Positions 1,121 through 52,422 of a stretch of DNA of 64,000 nt are shown piece after piece (position 1 is the stretch's first letter; the number at the start of each line of letters is the position of its first letter). This DNA is from Bacteroidota bacterium. Lineage in GTDB: Bacteria > Bacteroidota > Bacteroidia > Chitinophagales > Chitinophagaceae. The position numbers and the translations under genes were made by a program. The stretch lies in the NCBI GenBank assembly GCA_030706685.1, contig JAUZOA010000002.1:62001-126000 (forward strand), written 5' to 3'. Below the pieces are notes generated by a model, which worked only from the letters and a program-made list of their open reading frames with translations, was not told the origin of the DNA and ran no database searches.

Positions 1121-4100
1121 TTATAATGCTTTAAGAGCTTCGATCCTCTCCCAATGGAGCTGGATACCTTCATTAGCCATAGCCAGGAACTCAGTGGCCC
1201 TTTCAGGGTAATTGTTCTTGATGGTAGCAAACCGGTTCTCATGATACAAGAACTCATTTAATGCCACGGAAGGCGGTTTACTGTCAATCACGAATCGCTG
1301 CCCTTTTTCTTTCAATGGATTGAAACGGATCAATGGCCAATAGCCGGTTTTCACGGCAAGACCCTGCTGCTCATTTCCATGACACATATCATAACCGTGC
1401 GCGATGCAATGACTATAAGCTATGATAAGGGAAGGACCGGGATAAGCTTCTGCTTCCAGGATAGTCTTGAGCGCATGAACATCATTGGCGCCCATCGCTA
1501 TCTGCGCTACATAAGCGCCACCATGCGCGATGGCCTGCATGGCGAGATCCTTCTTACCAGTTGTCTTTCCTTTGATGGAGAACTTTGCGCTGGCGCCGAC
1601 AGGAGATGCTTTTGATTTCTGCCCGCCGGTATTGGAATAAACTTCTGTATCCATTACCAGTATGTTTACATTCTCACCAGTACTGAGCACATGGTCCAGG
1701 CCACCAAAGCCAATATCATAAGCCCATCCGTCACCACCTACTATCCATACTGATTTCTTTTCGAGGAATTCAGCGACCTGGTAGAGACGATAGGATTCTT
1801 CTGTTTGTATACTGCGCAACCTCTTCTTTAATTCATTGACATTGGTGCGTTGCTGTATCAACTCGGCCTCAGAATCCCGGCGACTATCGGGATCTGCATT
1901 CAGCAAAATAGCATCGGTCAGTTCGCTGCCTATTTCTTCACGCAGATTCTTCAATAAACGCAGGGCCATGTCTCTTTTCTTATCTGTCGCCAGTTTGATG
2001 CCTAATCCAAATTCCGCATTGTCTTCGAACAAGGAGTTGGCCCATGCCGGCCCATGACCTTCATGATCCGTACTCCACGGTGTGGTAGGCAGGTTGGCTC
2101 CGAAGATGGAAGAACAGCCTGTCGCATTGGATACGATCATCCTGTCGCCAAAGAGTTGAGTGAGCAATTTTAAATAAGGCGTTTCACCACAACCACTGCA
2201 GGCGCCGGAAAATTCGAATAAAGGTTCCAGTAATTGTGAGCCTTTCACCGTTCCTTTATTCACTCTTGTACGGTCAATATCCGGAAGTGTCAGGAAATAA
2301 TCCCAGTTTTCCTTTTCCATTTCTTTTAACGGGATCACATCCTTCATATCAATGGCTTTATGCCCCGGCTCGGTCTTGCTTTCTATCGGGCAAACTTCTG
2401 TGCAGAGTTTACAACCGGTGCAATCTTCCACGGATACCTGCAAAGTATAAGCCTCTTTATCTTTAAAGAATTCTTTACCGATCGGGTCAGTATGTTTAAA
2501 GAATGCCGGTGCATCGGGCAACCAGTCGCGGTCATATACTTTTACGCGGATAGCGGCATGCGGGCAAACAAAATAACATTTGCCGCATTGGGAACATAAT
2601 TCAGGATCCCATACCGGCACCTGGTCAGCAATATTTCTTTTTTCCCATCTGGTAGTACCGGAAGGATAAGTACCGTCCACCGGGAATGCGCTTACCGGCA
2701 GTTCATCCCCTTCACCGGCAATGATCTTGCCCAATACCTGCTGTACAAAATCGGGCGCATTGAGAGAAACTGGCGCTTCAATCTCTTTATTGCCTGTTTC
2801 AAATTTTGAATAATCTATTTTATGAAGATTCGCTAATGTCTGGTCAACCGCCTGGTAATTCTTCTTTACCACATCTTCTCCCTTACGTCCGTATGTCTTT
2901 TTAATCGCGCTCTTGATATATTGAATGGCCAGGTCTCTTGTCATCACATTGGAAATGGCAAAGAAGCAGGTTTGGAGTACCGAATTAATACGGGAACCCA
3001 TCCCTGCTTCCTTCGCAACCTTAGAGGCATTAATAACATAAAATTTCAGTTTCTTATGGACGATTTCCTGTTGGATCTTCTTCGGTAATTGATCCCATAT
3101 TTCTTCAACAAGGTAAGGAGCATTCAATAAAAACGTAGCGCCTTCTTCCGCGTATTTCAATACATCATATTTCTTCAGGTAATTAAAATGATGACAGGCG
3201 ACGAAATTGGCGGAGTTAATAAGATAAGTAGATTGTATCGGGTGATCGCTGAAACGCAAATGCGAAACCGTCAATGAGCCGGATTTCTTGGAATCATACA
3301 CAAAATATCCCTGTACATAATTATCGGTGACTTCACCAATGATCTTAATCGTATTCTTATTGGCCCCAACTGTTCCATCGGCGCCAAGACCGTAGAACAA
3401 ACCACGGAAGAGATGCTGGTTTTCAATGGAAAAATCGTTGTCCCAGGGCAGACTGGTATGTGTCACATCGTCTTCAATACCGATAGTAAAACTATTCTTA
3501 GGTCTTTCTTTTTTCAATTCATCAAATACCGCTTTCACCATGCCCGGGTTAAATTCTTTGGAAGCAAGGCCATATCTTCCGCCGATTACCGTTGGCATCT
3601 CGTATTTCCAGCCGTTATGCAATGCACCGACCACATCCATATATAAAGGCTCGCCGATCGCTCCGGGCTCTTTGCAACGGTCGAGCACCGCGATCTTTTG
3701 TACCGTATTCGGAATAGCATCAATAAAATGCTGTATGGAGAATGGGCGATACAGGTGAATATTCAGGTAACCTACTTTTTCTCCACGGTCATTAAGATAA
3801 TCCGTCATTTCGTGAACGGGACCTGTTCCTGAACCCATGATAATAATGATCCTGTCCGCTTCAGGATGTCCATAATATTCGAATAATTTATAGGAACGAC
3901 CGGTGAGCTCTTCAAACTTTTTCATCATGGCCTGAACAATCCCCGGGGTCTCCTGGTAATATTTATTTGCTGCTTCACGACCCTGGAAAAATACATCAGG
4001 ATTCTGGGCCGTACCACGAACAAAAGGATGTTCGGGATTCAATGCCCTTTTACGATGTTTGCTTACTTCTTCTTCATCTATCATTTCCCGGATAGAATCT

Positions 4101-4708
4101 TCGGGAATCAATTCCACCTTGTTCAATTCATGTGAAGTGCGGAAGCCGTCAAAAATATTCAGGAAAGGAACCCTTGATTTAAATGTTGAGGCAGTCGCGA
4201 TCATGGCCATATCCATCGCTTCCTGCGGATTATTGCCAAATAACATGGCAAAGCCGGTAGGTCTTGTTGCCATTACATCACTGTGATCGCCAAAAATAGA
4301 AAGCGCATGGGTGGCAAGGGCCCTTGCGGCAATATGAAAAACAACAGGTGTCAATTCACCCGCGATCTTATACATATTGGGTATCATCAGCAATAAACCC
4401 TGCGAAGAAGTGAAAGTGGATGCCAGCGCACCGCCCTGTAAAGCACCGTGAATAGCTCCGGCGGCGCCGGCTTCGCTTTGCATTTCGATGATCTTGGGTA
4501 TTTCGCCGTAAATATTTTTTACCTCATTACTGCTCCATTCGTCGGCCAATTCTCCCATGGAGGAGGAGGGGGTGATGGGATAAATAGCACAGACTTCGCT
4601 GGTCCGGTAGGCAACATAAGCCGCAGCTTCATTACCATCCATAATCGCCGTAACTACTTCTTTTTGACCGGGGTTTTCTGAGATTTCGGGTTTGGTGATC
4701 GTCTCCAT
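1121..4708 (-). CDS. nifJ: Pyruvate:ferredoxin (flavodoxin) oxidoreductase
   Basis: 1195-aa ORF with the full single-chain PFOR layout: YPITPSSSMGELADEW, two 4Fe-4S motifs (CSQCGKCYFVCP, CTGCKLCTEVCP), and a C-terminal TPP domain (CSGCGETPYLKLLTQLFGDRM, NATGCSSI). Confidence 0.97.
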   Translation of the reverse strand: METITKPEISENPGQKEVVTAIMDGNEAAAYVAYRTSEVCAIYPITPSSSMGELADEWSSNEVKNIYGEIPKIIEMQSEAGAAGAIHGALQGGALASTFTSSQGLLLMIPNMYKIAGELTPVVFHIAARALATHALSIFGDHSDVMATRPTGFAMLFGNNPQEAMDMAMIATASTFKSRVPFLNIFDGFRTSHELNKVELIPEDSIREMIDEEEVSKHRKRALNPEHPFVRGTAQNPDVFFQGREAANKYYQETPGIVQAMMKKFEELTGRSYKLFEYYGHPEADRIIIIMGSGTGPVHEMTDYLNDRGEKVGYLNIHLYRPFSIQHFIDAIPNTVQKIAVLDRCKEPGAIGEPLYMDVVGALHNGWKYEMPTVIGGRYGLASKEFNPGMVKAVFDELKKERPKNSFTIGIEDDVTHTSLPWDNDFSIENQHLFRGLFYGLGADGTVGANKNTIKIIGEVTDNYVQGYFVYDSKKSGSLTVSHLRFSDHPIQSTYLINSANFVACHHFNYLKKYDVLKYAEEGATFLLNAPYLVEEIWDQLPKKIQQEIVHKKLKFYVINASKVAKEAGMGSRINSVLQTCFFAISNVMTRDLAIQYIKSAIKKTYGRKGEDVVKKNYQAVDQTLANLHKIDYSKFETGNKEIEAPVSLNAPDFVQQVLGKIIAGEGDELPVSAFPVDGTYPSGTTRWEKRNIADQVPVWDPELCSQCGKCYFVCPHAAIRVKVYDRDWLPDAPAFFKHTDPIGKEFFKDKEAYTLQVSVEDCTGCKLCTEVCPIESKTEPGHKAIDMKDVIPLKEMEKENWDYFLTLPDIDRTRVNKGTVKGSQLLEPLFEFSGACSGCGETPYLKLLTQLFGDRMIVSNATGCSSIFGANLPTTPWSTDHEGHGPAWANSLFEDNAEFGLGIKLATDKKRDMALRLLKNLREEIGSELTDAILLNADPDSRRDSEAELIQQRTNVNELKKRLRSIQTEESYRLYQVAEFLEKKSVWIVGGDGWAYDIGFGGLDHVLSTGENVNILVMDTEVYSNTGGQKSKASPVGASAKFSIKGKTTGKKDLAMQAIAHGGAYVAQIAMGANDVHALKTILEAEAYPGPSLIIAYSHCIAHGYDMCHGNEQQGLAVKTGYWPLIRFNPLKEKGQRFVIDSKPPSVALNEFLYHENRFATIKNNYPERATEFLAMANEGIQLHWERIEALKAL

Positions 4709-4910
4709 AAAACATGTTTTTTAGCCTGAGAAAGATGGCACAAAGTAGAAAGTACAGGGATACTGGCGGATGACCTGCATCAGGCCTAAACTTGATTTTA
4801 AATGGTTGTATCTCAGAAAGGCATGGCAAAAAGGAGAAAAGCCGGATAATTTGGCAGCCGGGCAAGATTTTTTATTTAAGAGGAACGGGCCAGTAGTACC
4901 TTTTTATAAT

Positions 4911-7133: not shown

Positions 7134-7460
7134 CTATTTCAGTTTCTCATTATTCTGGTGCCTCTCTGCATCCCTTATATTTTTCTTCTCGAAGTTTTTT
7201 TGCAATGCATCCGTCAGGTCAACCCCTGTTTGATTAGCCAAACAGATCAATACCCATAATACATCCGCCATTTCATCAGCCATGTTTTTGTTCTTATCCG
7301 ATTCTTTGAACGACTGGTCGCCATAGGTACGGGCCATGATGCGGGCCAGCTCCCCCACTTCTTCAGTAAGTATCGCCATATTCGTCAATTCGCTGAAATA
7401 GCGTACCCCAACGGTTTTGATCCATTGATCCACCTGCTGCTGCGCATCCCGGATAGTCAT
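7134..7460 (-). CDS. MazG-like nucleotide pyrophosphohydrolase
   Basis: EEVGELARIMA...DEMADVLWVLICLANQTGVDL is the all-alpha NTP-PPase (MazG-like) metal-binding pattern. Start trimmed to MTIRDAQQQV. Confidence 0.85.
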   Translation of the reverse strand: MTIRDAQQQVDQWIKTVGVRYFSELTNMAILTEEVGELARIMARTYGDQSFKESDKNKNMADEMADVLWVLICLANQTGVDLTDALQKNFEKKNIRDAERHQNNEKLK

Positions 7461-7954: not shown

Positions 7955-8407
7955 TTATTCTTTATTTTTTGTATCCATTACTATAGTTACCGGGCCATCG
8001 TTCAATAATTCCACTTTCATATCCGCTCCGAATTCCCCCGTTTTGACCGGCTGTCCAAGATCGGCTGAAAGCTGCGCGATCATCTTCTCATACTGGGGTA
8101 TGGCTATCTCTGGTTTGCTTGCTTTGATATAACTGGGACGGTTCCCTTTTTTCGTGGAAGCATGCAACGTAAACTGGCTGACCAATAATATTTCTCCCTT
8201 TTTATCCTTTACCGATACATTCATCACCCCATTCTCATCGTTAAAAATGCGCAGGTTGACGATCTTGGCGCTGAGCCATTCAATGTCTTCATTTGTGTCA
8301 GCATCTTCAACACCTAGTAATACTAATAATCCGCTGCCGATCTGTGAATGTATACGATCGCCGATAGTAACACTGGCCCTGCTGACCCGCTGAATAACCG
8401 CTTTCAT
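7955..8407 (-). CDS. dtd: D-aminoacyl-tRNA deacylase
   Basis: MKAVIQRVSRASVTIGD...LLVLLGVEDADT...SQFTLHA..KKGNRPSY...VKTGEFGADMKVELLNDGPVTI: canonical DTD motifs (SQFTLxA, NxGPVT variant NDGPVTI). Confidence 0.96.
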   Translation of the reverse strand: MKAVIQRVSRASVTIGDRIHSQIGSGLLVLLGVEDADTNEDIEWLSAKIVNLRIFNDENGVMNVSVKDKKGEILLVSQFTLHASTKKGNRPSYIKASKPEIAIPQYEKMIAQLSADLGQPVKTGEFGADMKVELLNDGPVTIVMDTKNKE

Positions 8408-8462
8408 ACCGGCAAGATAAAAGTTTATCGCTTACTGGCTGCCAACTGGTTGCTGACTGTCC

Positions 8463-8834
8463 TTACCGCCTCTTCTTCAGTGGCCGTTTCTTACCATTGT
8501 GCGCTTCCTCTAATACTTCTACGAGTATCTCCGTATATCTCTTTTTATTTTTCCGCTTGAATTCCTGGATAGCTGCGTTAAAAACGCTTTTCCCCTTCTC
8601 CAGTTTATGCTTTTTTCTATACGCTTCTTTTTTCCCAGGATTCCTGCTGATCTCCTTCGCATAAGCCACTGCTTCTGCAAAATAATCACGTTGCGCACGC
8701 TGTTGCGGGGTTGTTTTTACATTGTCCATATCAGGCACCAATGTTACTACGGTGCCATAGGAGTATTGCTTAAAGATAAGGTTACCCACCCTTCCGCGGA
8801 TACCTTTCAAAGCTGAATTAGTGCTTCTTGCCAT
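8463..8834 (-). CDS. Small, highly basic uncharacterised Bacteroidota protein
   Basis: 123 aa, MARSTNSALKGIRGRVGNLIFKQYSYGTVVTLVPDM...QQRAQRDYFAEAVAYAKEI..., very Lys/Arg-rich with tail KKRPLKKRR. The G.(R/K)(V/I)GN(L/V) start and QRAQ.(Y/K)F region recall DUF6266-like Bacteroidota proteins (from memory, unverified). Confidence 0.75.
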   Translation of the reverse strand: MARSTNSALKGIRGRVGNLIFKQYSYGTVVTLVPDMDNVKTTPQQRAQRDYFAEAVAYAKEISRNPGKKEAYRKKHKLEKGKSVFNAAIQEFKRKNKKRYTEILVEVLEEAHNGKKRPLKKRR

Positions 8835-8869
8835 AATTATGAGTTCAAATATTGTAATAGTGTTTTAAT

Positions 8870-9023
8870 ACTCCGACATCCCTTCGATGATACTCCGGTG
8901 CTCATGCGGTAATCATGTAATGATCCTGCGGTGAGCATACGGTAAGCATACGGTCTTCTATATTTCATCCTTCGCTCATCCTTCATTAACCCTTCGTACA
9001 TCTTACAGTCATCATTCGTAATG
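8870..9023. repeat. Degenerate tandem array with exact 11-bp period, 14 units (possibly 16 from 8848)
   Basis: Units in strict 11-nt register from 8870: actccgacatc ccttcgatgat actccggtgct catgcggtaat catgtaatgat cctgcggtgag catacggtaag catacggtctt ctatatttcat ccttcgctcat ccttcattaac ccttcgtacat cttacagtcat cattcgtaatg. T at unit position 3 in 13/14 and C at position 5 in 12/14. Confidence 0.85.
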
Positions 9024-9127
9024 TAAATATAGTAAAATTCAACGAAACCCCTCCCCTACCCCACCTGTTGAATCCCCATTCGCTATTTCTGGTCATTCAG
9101 TGCTAATTTTGCTACTTTATAAGATGC

Positions 9128-9532
9128 ATGATTGATTTTTCTTCAGAAATACAATTCCAAACTACCCGCAGCGGCGGTAAGGGCGGCCAAAATGTAAACA
9201 AGGTGGAAACAGCTGTGATCGGCTCGCTACCGGTTGATACTTCTCTGCTATTGACCGAAGAGCAGAAATCGCTTGTAAAAGAAAAATTATCCAACCGCAT
9301 CACCTCGGATGGCTATCTCCAGGTAAAATCACAGGTACACCGTACGCAACTGGCCAATAAAGAAGAAGTCGTCGAAAAGATCAACCTGTTGATAGCAAAT
9401 GCCCTGAAAAAGAAAAAACCAAGAATAGCCACCCGCATAAGCAAAGCAGCAAAAGAAAAAAGACTGGAGTCTAAAAAGAAACAGGCAGATATAAAGGCAG
9501 GACGGAAGAGATTCAGGCCAGATGAGTATTGA
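9128..9532 (+). CDS. arfB: Alternative ribosome-rescue aminoacyl-tRNA hydrolase (ArfB/YaeJ/ICT1-like)
   Basis: TTRSGGKGGQNVNKVETAV is the GGQ class-I release factor-like motif; basic C-terminal tail (KKKPRIATRISKAAKEKRLESKKKQ). Confidence 0.93.
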   Translation: MIDFSSEIQFQTTRSGGKGGQNVNKVETAVIGSLPVDTSLLLTEEQKSLVKEKLSNRITSDGYLQVKSQVHRTQLANKEEVVEKINLLIANALKKKKPRIATRISKAAKEKRLESKKKQADIKAGRKRFRPDEY

Positions 9533-50375: not shown

Positions 50376-51905
50376 ATGATGACAAAAAAAATTATCCTCG
50401 TTATTATGGACGGATGGGGATTAGGCAAAGTTGCATCGGCTGACGCAATCCAGCACGCCAACGTCCCTTTTACAAAGTCTTTGTATTCAAGCTATCCTAA
50501 TACCACACTGACGACCTGCGGTGAATTAGTCGGTTTGCCGGACGGGCAAATGGGCAACTCTGAAGTGGGCCACCTGAATTTAGGAGCCGGTCGTATCGTT
50601 TACCAGGAGCTCCAGCGTATCAATGTTGCAGTAAGAGACGGAGCCCTGGCAGCAAATGAAGAGTTCCGCAATTCGATTCGCTATGCAAAATCAAATAAGA
50701 AGCCACTTCATTTACTGGGTCTTGTCAGCAATGGCGGGGTTCATTCCCATATCAATCATTTAAAAGCTATCATTGATACCTGCCAGGCTGAAGGGTTAAC
50801 GGATGTTTTTATTCATGCTTTTACCGACGGCCGCGATTGCGATCCAAAAAGCGGTTTAGGATTTATCAAAGAATTGCAGGAACATCTCAATAAGACAACA
50901 GGTAAAATTGCCACTGTCTGCGGCCGCTATTATGCTATGGACAGGGATAAAAGATGGGAAAGAGTAAAACTGGCTTATGACGCAATAGTGAATGGCATCG
51001 GGCAAAAAGCGACAGATGCGCTCGCAGCAGTTGAAAATTCTTACGCAAAGAATATTACAGACGAATTTATCCTGCCTGCTGTAATTATTGATGAAGGACA
51101 ACAACCGTTAACAACGATAAAAGACGGCGACGCTGTTCTCTGTTTTAATTTCAGGACTGATCGCTGCCGGGAAATAACGCAGGTGCTTACACAAATAGAT
51201 TTACCGGAGTTTACTATGCATAAATTATCCCTGCATTATACGACAATGACCCAGTACGATCACAGCTACAAAAATGTAAATGTGATTTTTAAAAATGATG
51301 ATCTGAAAAATACCCTCGGAGAAATAATAGAACAACATGGATTAAAACAGATCCGGATAGCTGAAACAGAGAAATATCCTCATGTGACTTTTTTCTTCAG
51401 CGGCGGACGTGAAGTTCCCTTCCGGGGGGAAAAGAGGATAATGATCCCTTCTCCCAAAGTGGCTACTTATGACCTGAAGCCGGAAATGAGCGCTTACGAA
51501 GTAACAGATGCCCTGCTTCCCGAAATTGAAAACAAATCAGCCGACTTTATTTGCCTGAACTATGCCAATACCGACATGGTAGGTCATACAGGTGTGTGGG
51601 AAGCCGCTATCAAAGCTGCTGAAACAGTAGACAAATGTGTTGAACGGGTAGTGACAGCAGGGTTAAAAAACGGGTATGCTATTTTCCTGACTGCCGATCA
51701 CGGAAATTCAGATTATATGATTAATGAAGATGGTTCTCCGAATACGGCCCATACATTAAATCCCGTTCCTTTTTTTATCATTGATAAAGAGTGGCGGGGA
51801 AAGATCAAACCCGGGAAGCTGGGGGATATTGCCCCGACTATCCTGACCCTTATGGGTCTTCCCATTCCTAAAGAAATGACAGGTGAAATCCTGATTGATA
51901 AATAA
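50376..51905 (+). CDS. gpmI: 2,3-bisphosphoglycerate-independent phosphoglycerate mutase
   Basis: LVIMDGWGLGK, GQMGNSEVGHLNLGAGRIVYQEL, FTDGRDCDPKSG, NYANTDMVGHTG, TADHGNSD. Confidence 0.97.
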   Translation: MMTKKIILVIMDGWGLGKVASADAIQHANVPFTKSLYSSYPNTTLTTCGELVGLPDGQMGNSEVGHLNLGAGRIVYQELQRINVAVRDGALAANEEFRNSIRYAKSNKKPLHLLGLVSNGGVHSHINHLKAIIDTCQAEGLTDVFIHAFTDGRDCDPKSGLGFIKELQEHLNKTTGKIATVCGRYYAMDRDKRWERVKLAYDAIVNGIGQKATDALAAVENSYAKNITDEFILPAVIIDEGQQPLTTIKDGDAVLCFNFRTDRCREITQVLTQIDLPEFTMHKLSLHYTTMTQYDHSYKNVNVIFKNDDLKNTLGEIIEQHGLKQIRIAETEKYPHVTFFFSGGREVPFRGEKRIMIPSPKVATYDLKPEMSAYEVTDALLPEIENKSADFICLNYANTDMVGHTGVWEAAIKAAETVDKCVERVVTAGLKNGYAIFLTADHGNSDYMINEDGSPNTAHTLNPVPFFIIDKEWRGKIKPGKLGDIAPTILTLMGLPIPKEMTGEILIDK

Positions 51906-51933
51906 ATAGTAATTTAAATACTAAAATTCTACT

Positions 51934-52422
51934 ATGCTAAAGAAGATTTTCATTTTTCTGCTGCTCGTATTTATCGTTATCCAGTTCTTTCATCCAAAAC
52001 CAAATAAAGCCAGCGGCGAGCAACCGAATTTTATTGGCAAACTATATGCCATCCCGGAAGATATAAAGCCCATCCTGGAAAAAGCTTGTAATGATTGCCA
52101 TTCGAATAATACCCGCTATCCCTGGTATAGTAATATCCAGCCGGTTGACTGGTGGCTCACCAAGCATATTAATGATGGGAAAAGACATTTTAACTTTGAT
52201 GATTTTACCGGCCGCACACCGAGGTACCAATACAATAAACTGGATGAACTTGTCGAACAGGTAAAAGCAGGCGATATGCCAATTAGCTCCTATACATGGA
52301 TACATAAAGACGCCATACTGAGTGCCGGTGAAAAAACCAGCCTGATAAACTGGGCGGAGGCTATGAGGGATAGTATGAAAGCAAAATACCCCATCGACAG
52401 CCTGCTGAAAAGAAAAAAATAA
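51934..52422 (+). CDS. Haem-binding domain protein (single CXXCH)
   Basis: ILEKACNDCHSNNTRYPWYSNIQPVDWWLTKHINDGKRHFNFDDF: Bacteroidota haem-binding domain family. Confidence 0.9.
   Translation: MLKKIFIFLLLVFIVIQFFHPKPNKASGEQPNFIGKLYAIPEDIKPILEKACNDCHSNNTRYPWYSNIQPVDWWLTKHINDGKRHFNFDDFTGRTPRYQYNKLDELVEQVKAGDMPISSYTWIHKDAILSAGEKTSLINWAEAMRDSMKAKYPIDSLLKRKK

Follow-up and report, generated by a model that had tools for sequence, protein, structure and literature searches.

What is the role of a run of 11-bp units that vary in sequence and never in length, lying directly upstream of a gene for a small basic protein? We examined this question for a 64,000-nucleotide stretch of a Bacteroidota genome (hereafter the window), whose relevant features are collected in Table 1. 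As a preliminary description of the window had reported, the array divides into 14 consecutive 11-mers without an indel, and the ten CpG dinucleotides between 8848 and 9023 all lie multiples of 11 apart, in a single register. The lag-11 autocorrelation check that it proposed was run and came out strongly: identity at lags 11, 22, 33 and 44 is 0.56, 0.55, 0.53 and 0.52 (80 of 143 positions at lag 11) against 0.13-0.35 at other lags, and the summed array score of 217 compares with 103 ± 9 for dinucleotide-preserving shuffles (z = 12.9, 0/2000), the best shuffle across periods 7-15 reaching 147. When the whole 64 kb was scanned, this array gave by far the strongest period-11 signal (0.564; the next was 0.391). 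Unit positions 1, 3 and 5 agree in 12-13 of the 14 units and position 4 is random. Adjacent units are barely more alike than units generally (identity 0.56 versus 0.51) and similarity hardly drops with distance, which argues against recent tandem duplication; the pattern is that expected of selection on a motif at fixed spacing. Two outer units described as extending the array are present but weak, and they overlap a possible promoter. The array is non-coding, as had been concluded, because no open reading frame of at least 60 aa in the window spans it, and a coding repeat is thereby ruled out; the argument originally given, that 11 is not a multiple of 3, does not hold, since translation of 11-bp units can yield a repeat of 11 residues.

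Table 1. Features of the locus and positions of related elements (plain numbers refer to the window; entries beginning with L refer to other loci).
Feature	Position	Strand	Remarks
dtd, D-Tyr-tRNA(Tyr) deacylase gene	7955..8407	-	conserved flank; PF02580; 55 bp downstream of the inserted gene, co-directional
Inserted cassette (array, promoter, gene), approximate	8408..9023	-	between dtd and arfB; ends approximate
Small basic protein gene	8463..8834	-	123 aa, net charge ~+19; N-domain family distantly related to DUF6266
Putative -7 element AATATTTG	8846..8853	-	imperfect copy, agreeing with TAnnTTTG at 7/8 positions; located between the array and the start codon; motif enriched family-wide
Two weak flanking units	8848..8869	-	overlap the putative promoter; from the unit listing
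11-bp iteron array	8870..9023	-	14 units, strict register; gene-sense consensus ~ACGAAGGATGA
arfB-like gene, RF-1 domain	9128..9532	+	conserved flank, divergent; PF00472
TTATACTGGAG/CCATACGGAAA array copies	L051 8594, L057 5575, L078 11996, L086 15048, L105 13916; L064 8539, L066 15709, L068 567
Pseudoknot leader members	L133 1361-1500; L139 411-550; L125 1361-1500
Pseudoknot leader members	L127 1795-1934; L128 997-1136; L111 1789-1928; L011 749-888; L119 1792-1931	-

The protein encoded downstream of the array has no match above cut-off in Pfam or NCBIfam. Searching with it recovered five distant paralogues in its own genome and relatives in two other genera. A profile search showed the family to be patchy, with members in 15 of 120 genomes of the same taxonomic family and up to 17 copies per genome; phylum-wide, 45 of 396 genomes carry it, and the weaker matches resemble DUF6266 (PF19781), with which the N-domain aligns at an hhalign probability of 98.5% (E 2.7e-15). 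N-domains are basic in 69 of 70 cases (mean +9) and have a conserved predicted arrangement of four short strands and four helices, whereas C-termini vary, being absent, immunoglobulin/fibronectin-like or, by weak matches in some members, helix-turn-helix-like. The AlphaFold2 model of the window protein is confident (pLDDT 93), and Foldseek returned nothing at E <= 0.001 from the PDB and viral models. The window gene thus belongs to a protein family without a name, whose fold is predicted with confidence and has no PDB match. Neither the sequences nor the predicted fold of the family contain a catalytic motif or resemble a nuclease or transposase. Phage or plasmid origin was rejected, as the window protein has no homologues in phages and a DUF6266 relative has none in phages or plasmids. 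A fixed operon partner was likewise rejected, the neighbours of family genes being assorted, unrelated host genes (118 neighbour ORFs).

The window array is no local oddity; similar arrays lie upstream of the genes of this widespread mobile family, next to homologues of the window protein, where the preliminary description had proposed to look for them. Of the paralogues and relatives first found, nearly all are preceded by an array of 10- or 11-bp units, and these units differ from one to another. An 11-bp array lies upstream of 37 of 76 non-redundant family genes from many Bacteroidota genera (shuffles give 0.1) and downstream of 5 of 74, the upstream count being taken within 650 bp of the gene at a threshold that misses degenerate arrays; upstream periods of 9, 12 and 13 number 2, 1 and 0, and period 10 also occurs. 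These arrays comprise ~5-14 direct repeats of 11 bp, some members having 10-bp repeats instead. For roughly half of the family genes no array exceeds the threshold, in some cases perhaps because it is too degenerate and in others perhaps because there truly is none. Loci found independently, by protein alone and mostly in named genomes (Ferruginibacter, Niastella, Flavihumibacter, Daejeonella, Flammeovirgaceae and others), gave arrays upstream in 13 of 28 and downstream in none, and their named matches assign the family to Bacteroidota. Two loci of this set sit in contigs labelled Chloroflexota that are possibly mis-binned; L316 and L323, where 11-bp arrays (GTTATAAATAG and GAATAAGTTAC) accompany family genes, are on contigs labelled Anaerolineales and Desulfolinea, indicating either transfer beyond the phylum or mis-binning. 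Genes that scored as DUF6266-like relatives have arrays upstream in 14 of 32 cases and downstream in none. Among 24 loci of DUF6266 proper, 10 have 11-bp and 4 have 10-bp arrays upstream and none has one downstream; all four DUF6266 copies of this genome carry upstream arrays.

Array units differ between paralogues in one genome, yet within a protein subfamily they are kept from genus to genus. Window-like proteins of other genera have the unit core CGAAGGAT upstream in the same orientation, TCATCCTAGGG is shared by this genome, G109, Niastella and Flavihumibacter, and CGGCAAATGAA is found in two Daejeonella genomes and one Flammeovirgaceae MAG; the window array can be aligned with that of L115 over 67 bp at 76%. 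N-domain identity correlates with unit similarity (Mantel r 0.38, 0/5000), also between genomes (r 0.29, 1/5000). The simplest explanation would be a cognate binder encoded beside its site, although part of the Mantel correlation could come from joint inheritance of linked DNA rather than from recognition. The earlier suggestion of selection on spacing is strengthened by these observations and extended to the unit itself, since the arrays of paralogues are built of different units, and units are more alike where the proteins are; this correspondence also supports phased binding by the adjacent Lys/Arg-rich protein, first listed as one option among several, as the leading hypothesis.

We therefore lean, by a modest degree, towards the reading that the adjoining protein has its cognate DNA site in the array and that the two form a mobile single-gene cassette. 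In this cassette, ~5-14 direct repeats (11 bp; 10 bp in some) would be followed by a core promoter and the small basic protein gene. The protein may bind the repeats with one protomer or dimer per helical turn, forming a cooperative filament or wrapped complex beside the promoter that would control its own expression and possibly serve the copying or maintenance of the cassette. We infer DNA binding, autoregulation and the way in which the cassette is copied. Counting against this reading, the predicted fold matches no known DNA-binding protein, 21 of 27 sampled 11-bp arrays have no N-domain-family gene nearby, and about half of the family genes have no called array.

The history of the locus bears on mobility. 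In seven relatives (four congeneric and three other), dtd and arfB are adjacent, so the gene and its array constitute an insertion of ~0.65 kb, most likely acquired in this lineage. Relatives thus lack both array and register, an outcome that the preliminary description had set against a functional array, but what they lack is the whole gene plus array, inserted in this genome. In one congeneric relative (L014, G005), the dtd-arfB spacer holds a near-perfect 7-bp array (TGACTAT) and no cassette. A short second 11-bp repeat of 2.7 copies (GCTAACTGGCT) lies in the window at 8430-8459, between the inserted gene and dtd. Within the span between array and stop codon, extended by 0-22 bp, the four DUF6266 copies of this genome show 81-94% identity, and their flanks are unrelated; by eye, their ends show no obvious inverted repeats or target-site duplication of the kind that a MITE or insertion sequence has, and the left end varies with array length. 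Copies in three genera are likewise alignable from the array to near the stop. Two solo arrays keep 5' remnants of a gene, and in the sampled portion of this genome the 21 of 27 11-bp arrays mentioned above have no N-domain-family gene within 2.5 kb, although the AAAGACGGATC arrays are tied to DUF6266 genes.

These data could also be read with the emphasis reversed: the array would be chiefly a mobility site of a selfish element, whose protein recognises it and brings about the copying both of solo arrays and of the array with its gene, with regulation secondary, by a logic like that of RAYT and REPIN. The patchy, multi-copy distribution, the four copies at 81-94% identity with sharp ends in unrelated surroundings, the insertion between dtd and arfB and the solo arrays, two of them with gene remnants, all favour it. 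So does the distribution of 11-bp arrays: this genome has 16 per 796 kb, G130 has 4 and G109 has 3 per 200 kb each, and 600 kb of ten genomes where no family gene was found have none, a result that also led us to reject the array as a universal feature of the group. Against it, 200 kb from six other family-bearing genomes contain no period-11 array, inspection by eye identified no obvious target-site duplications or terminal inverted repeats, and the protein has no catalytic motif and no similarity to nucleases or transposases, in sequence or predicted fold. We regard this selfish reading as rather unlikely.

Arrays away from family genes include two multi-copy families, TTATACTGGAG and CCATACGGAAA, without a recognised family gene; TTATACTGGAG keeps one unit orientation relative to the flanking genes in 4 of 5 copies. 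A gene-poor stretch of >1 kb, L070 11360-12046 (G000 contig C1, ~51360-52046), has three different 11-bp arrays of 8, 20 and 8 units, whose unit sequences differ, with no family gene nearby. Direct repeats of 60-190 bp, arranged like a cassette array between small unrelated genes, occur in L060 (contig C47) at 2817-2878, 3837-3898, 4682-4743 and 7240-7301. The ~120-bp repeats on contig C47 led us to consider an integron cassette, which was rejected because no integron integrase was found, the tyrosine recombinases detected being only generic and below the IntI cut-off; for the same reason, the diversity-generating or integration locus raised in the preliminary description was set aside. As for a 3' attC site, the copied units terminate at the stop codon or close to it.

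Could the period itself be what matters? If phased sequence served to bend DNA or recruit a general nucleoid protein, the sequence would be free as long as the period stayed near one turn. It is consistent with this that only approximately helical-turn periods (11, sometimes 10) are found upstream of family genes, 9, 12 and 13 being near zero, and that some units, for example AAAGACGGATC, whose arrays are tied to DUF6266 genes, carry AAA in phase. However, the units of many loci contain no A-tracts (GTTATCCTAGG, CATACGGTAAG), within subfamilies the unit sequence is kept from genus to genus and is correlated with that of the protein, and conservation within the window units is position-specific. 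A purely structural array is therefore improbable.

The position of the promoter speaks to whether the array is transcribed. The -7 match in the window lies ~12 bp ahead of the start codon, so that the array would abut the -33 region. Across the family, 10 of 52 loci have the Bacteroidota -7 motif TAnnTTTG between array and start codon, where 3.0 would be expected, and upstream of the array the count (3 versus 2.1 expected) shows no enrichment; by inference this placement points to an operator rather than a leader. A transcribed leader or non-coding RNA acting post-transcriptionally, another of the early proposals, fits poorly with this arrangement and with the lack of any Rfam match in the window. 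An AT-rich, possibly promoter-like stretch at ~9024-9045, upstream of the array, would permit a longer transcript, and some members do have a structured leader, though downstream of the array; we consider an RNA role still less probable than a structural one. The structured leader occurs in members with an Ig-like C-domain, which share ~100-130 nt between promoter and start codon, downstream of the array, containing a covarying H-type pseudoknot (7 of 12 pairs changed on both sides, 0/500 shuffles); no related Rfam family was found.

Chance or neutral tandem duplication, with a functionless array hitchhiking beside the gene, would be in keeping with the many 7-bp arrays of this genome that have no obvious function (47 in 1.04 Mb) but is disfavoured to the point of being barely credible by the z of ~13, the lack of indels over 14 divergent units, their flat similarity with lag and position-specific conservation, and the excess of arrays upstream (37/76) over downstream (5/74). 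In the 1.04 Mb of this genome that were sampled, periods 11 (23 arrays) and 7 (47) stand out and others are near zero, with Markov controls giving 0-1. The period-7 arrays, counted in the own-genome sample L049-L108 plus the window, are degenerate, with units such as CTGGATA, and are common also in relatives without the protein family.

The window array is thus one example of a module in which a small basic protein gene lies downstream of its own repeats of about a helical turn, the pair being copied around genomes as a unit. An uncharacterised Bacteroidota superfamily that includes DUF6266 is thereby tied to a specific cis-element, turning an anonymous DUF into a testable problem of protein-DNA recognition, for which paralogues and orthologues with different units offer a natural library for reading the code. 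The module also explains a class of intergenic repeats otherwise dismissed as low-complexity filler. Were it capable of moving on its own, this cassette of ~0.6-0.8 kb would count as an unusually small mobile unit with a single gene. More speculatively, and we think it doubtful as a whole, such modules may constitute a mobile-element class of a new kind, widespread across Bacteroidota: a stand-alone cassette made up of a single gene and its helical-turn iterons, whose small protein, of a new fold, would recognise its own array to copy cassette and solo arrays, with lineage-specific protein-iteron codes.

A protein with iterons near its own promoter is a known general idea. The literature searched on DUF6266, on 11-bp tandem repeats in Chitinophagaceae and on related subjects, which includes few subscription journals, contained no description of the module and no mention of DUF6266, and in Bacteroidota the module is apparently undescribed. 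We judge it new because it departs from every known family considered in one defining feature or more. Intergenic TAACTGA heptamer repeats in Beggiatoaceae (PMC4679880) are similarly short direct repeat arrays, many per genome, but their period of 7 is not a helical turn and heptamer arrays occur also in relatives without the protein family. The BrickBuilt element of Porphyromonas gingivalis, a tandem-array MITE without a gene (PMC4596501), is alike in having a tandem array inside a dispersed intergenic element, in the same phylum and with promoter activity; it differs in its 23-bp unit, inverted-repeat ends and lack of a gene, and is described from one species. DUF6266 shares a homologous N-domain, similar predicted secondary structure and upstream 10/11-bp arrays with the window protein but has an extra fibronectin-III-like C-domain, whereas the window protein lacks this C-domain and has no Pfam match over the gathering score.

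Two systems come closer in organisation. In REPIN-RAYT, repeat type is matched to the linked protein (PMC3116915), and dispersed non-coding repeats matching a linked gene, several distinct pairs per genome and solo repeats elsewhere are all found here too. The repeats here, however, are 11-bp direct arrays and not palindromic REP doublets, with an inverted half in some arrays only; the protein is ~100 aa without a Y1 (IS200-like) transposase match, and the gene is copied together with its array. ParR of plasmid R1 needs two 11-bp repeats, and that of pB171 binds 10-bp repeats (PMC9426499). As in ParMRC, a basic protein gene is linked to upstream 10/11-bp direct repeats in helical phase, the repeat sequence is family-specific, and the defining feature of parC, a 10-11 bp direct repeat array at the operon promoter, is present. 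In contrast to ParMRC, the cassettes are chromosomal and dispersed and have no ParM-type NTPase or other conserved partner gene alongside (none among the 25 commonest families of 118 neighbour ORFs, none beside the window gene), and the ribbon-helix-helix of ParR has no counterpart here by Pfam, NCBIfam or PDB fold match. The cassette thus resembles ParR-parC in geometry while not being a member of that system; its protein is a putative repeat binder on the indirect evidence of unit-protein co-variation.
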